From Nitrospinota bacterium (GTDB taxonomy: Bacteria > UBA8248), in NCBI GenBank assembly GCA_026706735.1, contig JAPOYD010000100.1, positions 1 through 42,943 on the forward strand: DNA of 42,943 nucleotides. The letters run 5' to 3'. The notes below the pieces were generated by a model. The model worked only from the letters and a program-made list of their open reading frames with translations. It did not search any database and was not told the DNA's origin. This document shows, piece after piece, positions 24,696 to 27,782 of this stretch. How positions within the stretch are numbered: position 1 is the stretch's first letter; each line of letters starts with the position of its first letter. The position numbers and the translations under genes are program-made.

Positions 24696-25808
24696 ATGGG
24701 CTACCGGGGGATGCACGTCGTGGATGCCGACGCGCACTATCTCGAGGAAATCCGCGATTTCGCCAGGTATCTGAAAGGCCCCTCCGTCGAGCGCTTCGCC
24801 GACTGGAGCGGGCAGTACCACATGCCTGCCCTGGTGGGGGATCAGTACGACGTCATGCTCCACGGGCGCACCGTTCGGGGCGCAGAAGCGGGCAAGGGCG
24901 ATCAGGACGAGATGCTCGGCATGTCGAGTCCCGCCGACATACCCGTCGTGATGGAGCGCTTCGGCATCGACACCATCGTCATGATCCCCACCTACATGCT
25001 CATGGTCGAGTTCGTGCGCAACGCGAACCACGCCATGGACATCTGCAACGGCTACATCGACTACATGCTGGACGGCGTATGCGCGCCGGAAGAAGGAATC
25101 TACACGCTGGTGGTGGCCGCAGGCCGCGACCCGGCGCGAGCGGCGAAGATGATTGACCGCGTGGCGGGCAACCCCGCCGTTTGCGGGGTGGAGATGCTCG
25201 GAAGCGCCGAGCTTCCCCTGGGGGCCGAGGCGTACAACCCCATCTACGAGGCGGCGCAGCACCACGGGCTTCCCATCGTCTTGCACGCGAACTTCCTTGG
25301 GCCGGATCTGTCCAGTTTCGCCAAGTTTCCTTCCTTTTTAGAGAGCCACGCGCTGGACATGACGTGGTGCAACCAGGTGCAGCTCGTGAGCATGGTGATG
25401 GAGGGCGTGCCCGAGCGCTTCCCGGACCTCAAGATCGTGTTCCAGGAAAGCGGCATCACCTGGGTGGCGGGCCTCATGTACCGCCTCGACACCGAATACA
25501 TGCGCCGCCGCGCCGAGGCCCCCCTGCTCAGGAAGCTGCCGAGCGAATACATCAAGGATTTCTACTTCGGCACCCAGCCGATGGAGGATATGCCAAGAAA
25601 GCACCTCAAGATGTTCTTCGACCTGCTCGATGGGGAGAACAACTTCCTGTTCGCGAGCGACTGGCCCCATTTCGATTACGACGAGCCATCGGCGGTCGCC
25701 GACCTCCCGTTCCTGAGCGATGCGGGCCGCCGCAAGATCATGGGCGAGAACGCGCTGGGCGTCTTCCGCTTCACGGAAAAGACGGTGAACCTGGAGGCGA
25801 GCGCCTGA
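24696..25808 (+). CDS. Amidohydrolase-2 family protein (ACMSD-like metal-dependent hydrolase/decarboxylase)
   Basis: 370 aa from ATG 24696 (GGGGAGA upstream); the track start 24531 has no support. The metal-site pattern of this TIM-barrel family is visible: VVDADAHYLE at the N-terminus, GLPIVLHANF in the middle, and FASDWPHFDYDEPSAV near the C-terminus. PERFPDLKIVFQESGITWVAGLMYRLD is the standard barrel strand 6-7 region. Members decarboxylate or hydrolyse aromatic or carboxylic intermediates. The stop overlaps the start of the Rieske gene (TGATG), so the two are translationally coupled and probably act together. Confidence 0.92.
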   Translation: MGYRGMHVVDADAHYLEEIRDFARYLKGPSVERFADWSGQYHMPALVGDQYDVMLHGRTVRGAEAGKGDQDEMLGMSSPADIPVVMERFGIDTIVMIPTYMLMVEFVRNANHAMDICNGYIDYMLDGVCAPEEGIYTLVVAAGRDPARAAKMIDRVAGNPAVCGVEMLGSAELPLGAEAYNPIYEAAQHHGLPIVLHANFLGPDLSSFAKFPSFLESHALDMTWCNQVQLVSMVMEGVPERFPDLKIVFQESGITWVAGLMYRLDTEYMRRRAEAPLLRKLPSEYIKDFYFGTQPMEDMPRKHLKMFFDLLDGENNFLFASDWPHFDYDEPSAVADLPFLSDAGRRKIMGENALGVFRFTEKTVNLEASA

Positions 25809-26185
25809 TGGCGAGGCGGCTCTGGGCGGCGCGCGCGTCCGAGATAGGCCCCGGCGAGCGGATTCGCCTGGAGCTCGGCGGCCTCAAGCTGGGGATATTC
25901 CGGCTGAGTGACGGTTTTTTCGCGCTGGAAGACAAATGCCCCCACCAGCAGGGCCCTGTCTGCTCGGGGAACCTCTTCCGCGAGATCACGGCTTCCGTGG
26001 GGAAGGACGGCAGGGTGCGCGAGCGCTACGCGCGCGATGAGGCGGACGTGGTCGCGTGCCCCATGCACGGCTGGGAGTTCGAGGTCAGGACGGGGGAGTG
26101 CCTCGCCAACCGCAGGCGGAAAGTCCAGCGCTTTCCCGTGGAAGTCGACGGGGAGGACCTCTATGTCATTCTGCCGGGGGGTTGA
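25808..26185 (+). CDS. Rieske [2Fe-2S] protein with long inter-motif insertion
   Basis: 125 aa from ATG 25808, overlapping the amidohydrolase stop by 1 nt. Both cluster-binding boxes are present: CPHQ (C-x-H) near residue 45 and CPMHGWEFEVRTGECLANRR (C-x-x-H) near residue 85. About 37 residues separate the boxes, compared with the usual 16-18. The extra segment is charged (FREITASVGKDGRVRERYARDEADV). There is no membrane anchor, so it is a soluble ferredoxin-like protein. It may donate electrons to the coupled amidohydrolase-like enzyme or to an oxygenase elsewhere; that role is inferred. Confidence 0.88.
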   Translation: MARRLWAARASEIGPGERIRLELGGLKLGIFRLSDGFFALEDKCPHQQGPVCSGNLFREITASVGKDGRVRERYARDEADVVACPMHGWEFEVRTGECLANRRRKVQRFPVEVDGEDLYVILPGG

Positions 26186-26202
26186 GGAGAATTAGTTCGA
26201 CA

Positions 26203-27180
26203 ATGAAGAAACTGGCGCTGAAGTTGTTGTTGATTGCGTTACTCGTATATATCGGAGCGGGCAGGGCTGTTGCGCAGCCACCACCGGAAACAGTTGGTTG
26301 GTGGGAGTGGGCAATCACTGCGGCGCATGCGTCGATTGCGAGTGTCAGGAGCGCAGCGATCGCGCCAGGATTGGATGAGATGCCGGAAGTGGGGGCGCGG
26401 CTGAGCCAGCGAGCGTCAGACGCGAATCAGAGAGCCAACACTGGTAACCTCAAAGGGAGGGATTTGTTCCCGAAGATTCCGGGCGGTGTACGGCTGGCTG
26501 GTCCAAGAGCGATACTGGAGTATCTCAACAAGCACGAGGTGAGCCATATTCAATCCGTTAAGCATCATCCGGAATTAGCAGCCAAACCGGATAACTTGGT
26601 CTTCGAACCTCTGAAATGGAACCGTGCGCGTGGCTCAAGCAACATGAAACTCTTGGACAAGGTCAAAGTGCGCTTCCACAACATTGCAGCGAGCATCGCG
26701 GGTGGGCGAAGGATTGTGCTTACAACCGTGGCAAAGGGTGGAGCAATCGGAACGCTTGTAGAGTTGCCGGTGACGGCAACAGTGGAGACGTTGAACGTAG
26801 TCAACCAGCGTAAGACAGCAAATCAGGCGATAGGGGATGGGGCGCAAAAGGTTGGCGTGACCGCGCTGGCAGGCGGGGCGACGGCGGGTGCGCTGACAAT
26901 GGCAAGCACGTTCGGATTCACTGTGGGAGCGCCAGTGCTGGTTCCGCTGGCGGTAGTAGGCGGAAGTGCGTACGTTTGGGTGTCGAGTGATCGCGTCTGG
27001 AATGCGCTTGATAATGAGACGCGCACTGTAATTGAGGCGCAACTTGTGAGAGTGCAAGGTATGATTCGAAACTCCGTCAGCGCGTGGCGCGACCGGGCGC
27101 GAGTGGCGACCAAGGCGGCGAACAAGACATTACAGGATTACATCAATGCGGCAGTAACCGCAGGGAAAGGGCAAGAATGA
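26203..27180 (+). CDS. Exported protein of unknown function with HNH-like motif and hydrophobic C-terminal region
   Basis: 325 aa from ATG 26203. The ribosome site is poor (GAGGAG lies 13 nt upstream). Residues 1-25 are a Sec signal peptide ending AVAQ. Residues 105-148 read LEYLNKHEVSHIQSVKHHPEL, then PDNLVFEPLKWNRARGSSNM. The His pair, Asn in PDN and N-x-x-RG suggest a His-Me-finger (HNH-type) nuclease core; this is pattern-based inference. Residues 170-262 are glycine- and alanine-rich and hydrophobic (ALAGGATAGALTMASTFGFTVGAPVLVPLAVVGG), like one or two membrane-active hairpins. Codon use differs from the neighbours (TTA, CAT, CAA, AGA, GTA are common), indicating acquisition by transfer. 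No immunity gene was found next to it. Confidence 0.7.
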   Translation: MKKLALKLLLIALLVYIGAGRAVAQPPPETVGWWEWAITAAHASIASVRSAAIAPGLDEMPEVGARLSQRASDANQRANTGNLKGRDLFPKIPGGVRLAGPRAILEYLNKHEVSHIQSVKHHPELAAKPDNLVFEPLKWNRARGSSNMKLLDKVKVRFHNIAASIAGGRRIVLTTVAKGGAIGTLVELPVTATVETLNVVNQRKTANQAIGDGAQKVGVTALAGGATAGALTMASTFGFTVGAPVLVPLAVVGGSAYVWVSSDRVWNALDNETRTVIEAQLVRVQGMIRNSVSAWRDRARVATKAANKTLQDYINAAVTAGKGQE

Positions 27181-27339
27181 GGATACACTCGCTCTAGCCA
27201 TTTTGAAGAAACGCAAAGCATTCTTGAGTAATGCCTTGAAGCCTTCCGCTTCCCAACAAGCAATTTCACCTTCTTGACAACCAAACCGCAAACGCCTCTA
27301 TAATTTCTACATATACAAAAGCTCGACCGAAACAGACGG

Positions 27340-27362
27340 GAGGATGGAGGCCTCCTCTTTTT
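27340..27362 (+). terminator. Weak candidate terminator upstream of the VOC gene
   Basis: GAGGA (27340-27344) pairs with TCCTC (27353-27357) around GGAGGCC, followed by five T. The stem is short. The gap 27181-27389 holds no ORF. Confidence 0.3.
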
Positions 27363-27389
27363 CGGCTCACTTTTTCGGGAGGGGAAAAG

Positions 27390-27782
27390 ATGTCCATGCC
27401 CACCTATGGATACGATCACCTGCATTTTCGAAGCGAAGACCCCCACGCGGCCAGAAAATTCTGGGAGGAGATGTTTGGTGCGAAGGTAGTGGATGAGGGC
27501 GACCTGGGCGGTTCGCCCCTTTTCAGCTTCGATCTGAACGGGATGCACTTTCTGGTCTCGGGCCGGGCGGAGGGCGAAAACCCCGTCCACACGACGAGCG
27601 ACCCGCGCTACGGGCTGGATCATTTCGGCCTTGTCGTCGACGACATGGACAGGGCCGAGGCCGACCTGCGCGCGAAAGGCGCCGACTTTATATGCGATCC
27701 GTGGGAGATCGGCCCGGGCACGAAGATCGCCTTCATCCGGGGGCCGGACGACATCAGCATCGAACTCGTATCGCGCGGCTAG
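27390..27782 (+). CDS. VOC (glyoxalase/bleomycin-resistance) family protein
   Basis: 130 aa from ATG 27390 (GGGAGGGGAAAAG upstream). It has two beta-alpha-beta-beta-beta modules. The first is YGYDHLHFRSEDPHAARKFWEEMFGAKVV with HFLVSG. The second is GLDHFGLVVDDMDRAEADLRAKGADFI and ends IAFIRGPDDISIELVSR. Metal-ligand candidates are His in DHLHF, His in GLDHFGL and Glu in ISIELV. VOC proteins range from glyoxalases and epimerases to extradiol dioxygenases; the reaction here is unknown. It precedes the sugar-type ABC operon, which has its own promoter. Confidence 0.88.
   Translation: MSMPTYGYDHLHFRSEDPHAARKFWEEMFGAKVVDEGDLGGSPLFSFDLNGMHFLVSGRAEGENPVHTTSDPRYGLDHFGLVVDDMDRAEADLRAKGADFICDPWEIGPGTKIAFIRGPDDISIELVSRG

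Follow-up and report, generated by a model that had tools for sequence, protein, structure and literature searches.

The locus and its gene product

At positions 26203-27180 of the window, by which we mean the whole analysed stretch of 42,943 nucleotides, the forward strand carries an intact gene of 325 codons that is free of internal stops and encodes a protein referred to here as P0001 (Table 1). It starts 17 bp past the stop codon of a Rieske-like gene, and a VOC-family gene lies about 200 bp beyond its end; both names are our own reading of the neighbouring sequences. The ribosome-binding site is weak by its spacing, and no partner or immunity-like gene adjoins the gene among its neighbours in the window. 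A preliminary description made from the sequence alone had already remarked on the weak site and the solitary setting, and had drawn attention to the combination of a signal peptide, an HNH-like motif and a glycine-rich hydrophobic stretch, all of which this gene encodes. The signal peptide is of the Sec type and reads MKKLALKLLLIALLVYIGAGRAVA, followed by Q, with an AxA cleavage site. Further downstream, a stretch reading LFPKIPGGVR...ILEYLNK precedes the motif HEVSHIQSVKHHPELAAKPDNLVFEPLKWNRARG, which spans residues 111-144.

Table 1. Features of the P0001 locus (positions in the window)
Feature	Position	Strand	Basis and remarks
Rieske-like gene	25808-26185		named from our reading of the sequence
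SD-like AGGAG	26185-26189	+	13 nt 5' of the ATG; sequence
Genus-variable insert, ~1.1 kb	26188-27268	.	begins 2 bp past the Rieske stop codon; flank matches against G006, G007 and G008
HNH-like membrane protein gene (P0001)	26203-27180	+	325 aa; ORF; ortholog with 72% amino acid identity in L001/G004
Signal peptide, residues 1-24, AVA/Q site	26203-26274	+	sequence; hydropathy segment 1-26; AxA also in the ortholog
5' part, codons 1-50, near-identical synonymously to the sister gene	26203-26352	+	2 synonymous changes in 37 sites
Pre-HNH helix-IP-helix stretch, residues 84-109, P93 invariant	26452-26529	+	homologue alignments
HNH-like core, residues 110-146 (S114, H115, N131, E135, N140, R143, G144)	26530-26640	+	conservation in 35 homologues; register with a canonical Pfam HNH protein
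Gly/Ala/Val-rich hydrophobic region with small-xxx-small motifs, about residues 158-262	26674-26988	+	hydropathy; kept across the family
Charged C-terminal region, residues 263-325, fast-evolving	26989-27177	+	53% identity to the ortholog; omega 0.47 (residues 266-325)
VOC-family gene	27390-27782		named from our reading of the sequence

A genus-variable insert with a fast-diverging body

The codon use of the gene is indeed foreign-looking, as the preliminary description held: GC3 is 0.612, compared with 0.79-0.88 in eight nearby genes, and within the window, which is the scope of this comparison, its codon-adaptation index of 0.504 is the lowest of all open reading frames tested. Three genomes of the same genus (G006, G007 and G008) possess the flanking genes and lack the HNH-like gene. 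At the empty site of G006, the left flank matches up to position 26187 and the right flank from 27269, with 22 bp between them; at the sites of G007 and G008, some 200-270 bp of other sequence replace the gene. By eye, this other sequence at the empty sites of G008 and G007 (L011 and L012, respectively) contains palindromic REP-like repeats, which suggests that the spacer is rewritten repeatedly. In G005, the two flanks are found on separate contigs and the gene is absent.

An ortholog occupies the identical place in one other genome (L001/G004), the MAG 'Nitrospinae bacterium bin107', which originates from the sponge Aplysina aerophoba (PMC5649159), and the bacterium carrying P0001 is probably a sponge symbiont. 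In trees of the flanks, G000 and G004 do not group together, so that the gene would either be ancestral and repeatedly lost, or have moved between species. Compared with the ortholog, the flanking genes show a dS of about 0.34-0.45 and an omega of 0.04-0.09; the omega of the P0001 gene is 0.26 over its whole length and 0.095 within the core. With a core omega of about 0.1, the gene is under purifying selection and is not decaying. The earlier idea that it might be a remnant of a larger transferred module fits poorly with this constraint, with an intact gene in two species and with an insert that comprises this gene only.

The synonymous divergence from the ortholog is distributed unevenly. Synonymous changes are scarcer than in the flanking genes over codons 1-50 and more numerous over the remainder of the gene, with values of 0.35-0.75 past codon ~55, which exceed those of the flanks, and ~0.5 per site beyond codon 75 (codons 1-75 versus 76-325, Fisher p 1.3e-6). 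Furthermore, the low nucleotide identity extends beyond the stop codon. On the simplest reading, which rests on these two sequences, the body of the gene would have been swapped by allelic replacement behind a conserved leader. We considered several other accounts of this pattern and of the insert as a whole. No Rfam element matches the conserved 5' end. An exchangeable leader was discarded, as residues 1-60 occur in only the two orthologs among 18 genomes of the phylum. Likewise, the region 26000-27500 is free of the repeats and inverted repeats of a mobile element, and a typical phage gene was dismissed, as phage records gave no match and, of the viral contigs, a single one of 113 kb did.

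A family found mainly in cyanobacteria

No Pfam or NCBIfam model identifies P0001 above its curated cut-off, in agreement with the preliminary description, which had not recognised the family; NCBIfam and PADLOC return nothing, and the best Pfam match is to Tox-GHH (E 0.025, 15 bits against a cut-off of 25, residues 107-134). As a single-sequence query, P0001 matches G339 (E 3.4e-11, residues 57-256) and G717 (E 2.9e-11, residues 83-257). In this way, relatives are found in 23 of the 339 cyanobacterial genomes sampled, and a profile extends this to 40 (~12%), partial matches among them; copies on plasmids occur as well. Outside the cyanobacteria and the genus of the window, there is one clear member, in G250, from a phylum sampled by five genomes. 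The matches take in the core and the hydrophobic region jointly, and members share the helix-IP-helix stretch, the HNH-like core and the Gly-rich hydrophobic region, and can be aligned along most of P0001. We did not retain G128 and G265, the matches of which are limited to the hydrophobic region and in G128 include stops.

The actual family of P0001 is formed by cyanobacterial proteins annotated as 'HNH endonuclease' or 'hypothetical' (e.g. WP_179076706, WP_224346758 and WP_011316605). They have its full-length architecture, but are only ~17-23% identical to it and mostly lack an obvious signal peptide; one other family member, L062, also opens with a signal-peptide-like stretch. In the tree, P0001 and the bin107 ortholog form a long branch of their own. 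The distribution suggests a donor among the cyanobacteria, without singling one out.

One family member, in G453 (L068:1165-2214 and L103:6665-7717), opens with a complete PsaE domain (photosystem I subunit IV; Pfam E 4.7e-32 and NCBIfam 1.1e-28), which shares a single open frame with the HNH-membrane part. The member in G250 (L092:1201-2613 and L096:6362-7774) is flanked on both sides by CRISPR-repeat-like runs with recurring FNPFFIRAVLQT/SIPSSSGQYFR readings. Lastly, Picosynechococcus plasmids encode short proteins with the same HNH-like core (L029:2899-3237 and L122:6929-7285); the one of PCC 7002 adjoins a type III-B cas10/cmr2 gene, and in PCC 7003 a gene for about 990 aa occupies the corresponding position, in an arrangement that looks alike.

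The HNH-like core

Six residues (P93, S114, H115, E135, N140 and R143) are identical in every one of 35 homologues, and two more are nearly so (N131 in 34 and G144 in 33 of them); judged from these alignments, the conservation of the motif exceeds chance. H115, N131 and N140 are spaced as in HNH proteins. The position ahead of the catalytic His, where Asp or His would be expected, is a serine in P0001 (S114) and in all of the 35 homologues. In HNH enzymes, the residue preceding the catalytic His and an Asn or His in the helix bind the metal. Given that the first metal-ligand position is Ser throughout, E135 may substitute for it; alternatively, the activity of the enzyme may have changed or been lost.

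Several family members give sub-threshold matches to the Pfam profiles HNH, HNH_5, HNH_4 and Tox-GHH, which fall on the HNH-like motif where their positions are listed. For instance, the match of L060 spans DKHGSHIIPRSQGGSNGADNI, the equivalent of the motif in P0001. None of the full-length family members matches a single HNH profile at the curated cut-off. In addition, a cyanobacterial protein of the canonical HNH type (Pfam HNH, E 7e-15) aligns in register with the motif of P0001 and has D in place of S114. Since this protein was picked up with P0001 as the query, the pairwise E-value overstates their likeness; in a database search E is about 1, and the family profile finds it with E 0.006 among 10,041 ORFs. 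By motif, we consider the assignment of P0001 to the HNH proteins to be strong. Of the exported nuclease that the preliminary description had considered possible, we can uphold an exported protein that combines an HNH-like motif with a membrane-active region; the HNH profile scores themselves stay below threshold.

AlphaFold2 models built on 3-row alignments, in which a beta-beta-alpha metal finger would have spoken for the HNH fold, were too poor to use (pLDDT of 35 for the full protein and 45 for the core), and a PDB sequence search returned no relevant relative, its matches to designed armadillo repeats stemming from the Ala-rich region. We likewise set aside PHROGs matches to 'plasmid stability' (E 0.012) and to tail fibres, which are weak and lie in the low-complexity part.

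A partner gene in cyanobacterial relatives

In the clade around Trichormus/Nostoc, the HNH gene is followed by a partner gene at every locus examined (11 loci). Anabaena/Trichormus variabilis ATCC 29413 has the pair on a plasmid (NC_007410). The partner has a conserved N-terminus of ~150 residues, with a glycine-patch TM segment and a coiled coil, to which different C-termini are attached: actin-like (PF17989, E 6.8e-15), dynamin-like (PF00350, E ~1e-17), FGE-like (E 1.7e-46) or none. The dynamin-like partner of three relatives matches LeoBC of PADLOC, with a best E of 1.4e-10. A search of the 339 cyanobacterial genomes with the partner N-terminus yielded nine copies, spread over seven loci in six genomes, and all nine, tandem second copies counted, lie directly downstream of a family HNH gene.

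Two HNH loci of G626 (C1:1661605-1663981, L110, and C1:1548707-1551077, L113) are each followed by two tandem partners of differing length. The sole exception we saw to the pairing is a Dolichospermum plasmid, where the HNH gene is absent within 3 kb and the partner N-terminus appears in two pieces ahead of an actin-like gene (L156:3001-3714); perhaps this is a degraded pair. On the single matching IMG/VR contig (L088:5845-10317), the HNH gene and the partner are followed by a caspase-like gene (Pfam C14, E 5.5e-5) and an alpha/beta-hydrolase-like gene, possibly as a four-gene defence cassette. The partner is absent beside the P0001 gene, and a single-sequence search of the genome of the window found none, leaving P0001 as a solo and putatively exported form of the family.

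Proposed role and alternatives

We lean, at a little short of even confidence, towards the view that P0001, encoded by a single gene gained through lateral transfer, is a nuclease of the HNH (His-Me finger) kind that is exported, tethered to the membrane and meets DNA at the envelope. Sec export would strip residues 1-24, the glycine-zipper-like hydrophobic region (158-262) would enter the membrane or oligomerise in it, and the HNH-like core would cut incoming or free (foreign) DNA on the periplasmic side. For catalysis, H115 would act as the general base and N140 would hold the metal, perhaps together with E135 in place of the Asp that is usual at the position of S114. A nuclease kept outside the cytoplasm would also account for the absent immunity gene. 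The relatives of the cyanobacterial clade, which have no signal peptides, would instead be coupled to the membrane/coiled-coil partner with its variable NTPase or other domains.

This proposal is consistent with the conserved motif residues, the sub-threshold HNH matches and the register with a canonical HNH protein, with a signal sequence that recurs in the sister species, the low omega of the core, the foreign codon use and the empty sites, and with the lack of an adjacent immunity-like gene and the pairing of the related clade with dynamin-like or actin-like partners. On the other side, the family-wide Ser in place of the usual metal-binding Asp or His could mean that activity is altered or lost, the HNH matches stay below curated cut-offs, and export is not a family trait. 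As the gene has neither a partner nor a defence-island context, a role in defence would be assigned by analogy only.

Possible, but more doubtful, is the wider idea that the family constitutes a conflict system, so far undescribed, built on a membrane-associated nuclease. The constant component would be the HNH-membrane protein, of which P0001 would be a stripped-down, exported form. In cyanobacteria it would be joined by the constant TM/coiled-coil partner with exchanged C-termini (dynamin-like GTPase, actin-like ATPase, FGE-like or other), and this partner would sense or respond to the entry of phages or plasmids at the membrane.

Among the alternatives, the one that survives best, albeit as an unlikely one, is a catalytically dead HNH-derived protein that has kept its fold for binding DNA or protein and acts as a structural or signalling membrane protein. 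The serine at the first metal ligand would fit such a protein, as would the joining or linkage of some cyanobacterial members to non-nuclease parts (PsaE-like in L068, actin and dynamin partners). However, a dead enzyme would not usually keep, with hardly any variation or none, the His base and the two Asn residues typical of metal binding in HNH proteins, and the additional Glu, E135, is invariant too.

Clearly less probable is a secreted antibacterial effector, akin to bacteriocins or polymorphic toxins, whose hydrophobic part would take the nuclease across the membrane of a competitor. A signal peptide, a nuclease motif and a membrane-active part in one protein, the weak Tox-GHH match, and a conserved leader before a fast-diverging body would all suit it, and the preliminary description had thought of a toxin-like effector. 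Yet the P0001 gene is flanked by the Rieske-like and VOC genes in both species, with no immunity-like gene adjoining it, no delivery, repeat or pre-toxin domain is seen in the protein, the motif is central rather than C-terminal, and in cyanobacteria many of the relatives are lone genes on the chromosome with nothing immunity-like next to them. Finally, a nutritional or housekeeping nuclease exported to the envelope for DNA scavenging or uptake, rather than for defence, is similarly improbable: the export signal, the single gene without an immunity gene and its place among catabolic and transport genes would agree with it, but presence in only part of the genus and fast divergence are rather what conflict genes typically show, and the LeoBC similarity of the relatives' dynamin-like partners points to defence.

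Relation to known systems

The HNH motif is of a known kind. As far as the profile libraries and the searched literature show, neither the combination of an HNH core with a membrane region, nor the motif with Ser for Asp, nor the linkage to a partner has been described, and our literature search found no paper describing the family or its partner. The family thus lacks a description in the profile libraries, yet it occurs in about an eighth of the sampled cyanobacterial genomes by profile. Should P0001 be a nuclease bound to the membrane and encountering DNA at the envelope, it would embody a distinct way to guard cells or to take up DNA. The members of the one clade and the membrane partner with swappable domains, to which they are strictly paired, would amount to a new two-gene system. 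As a compact, single-gene form with a predicted export signal, P0001 would be suited to biochemistry.

With the HNH endonucleases (His-Me finger; PF01844, HNH_4/HNH_5), P0001 shares the order and spacing of the motif, namely His, GG/loop, N and N..R/K.G. It differs in having Ser for Asp/His, an extra invariant Glu, no zinc-binding Cys and a hydrophobic membrane region joined to the core, and it falls under all curated cut-offs. The dynamin-like partner of three relatives recalls, through its match to LeoBC, the dynamin defence system Eleos (LeoA/LeoBC). Unlike there, the companion is an HNH-like membrane protein and not LeoA, and no dynamin is encoded near the P0001 gene.

The Tox-GHH and polymorphic-toxin HNH domains (PMC3482391) resemble P0001 in the weak profile match and in the notion of an exported nuclease. 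By contrast, P0001 has no GHH/GQH motif, immunity gene or repeat/delivery architecture, and its putative nuclease part is not C-terminal. A parallel in layout, and in layout only, is System 4 of Kaur et al. 2020 (PMC7159879), a mainly actinobacterial, two-gene membrane-associated conflict system of EACC1 and a caspase, with a glycine-patch TM component and variable C-termini. The cyanobacterial relatives likewise show a two-gene membrane-associated layout, a glycine-patch TM segment and exchangeable C-termini, and the caspase-like gene at the L088 locus adds a further likeness; their constant parts, however, are the HNH-like membrane protein and the TM/coiled-coil protein, of which P0001 has the HNH part only. 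The cyanobacterial pair with its exchangeable C-termini resembles biological-conflict systems.
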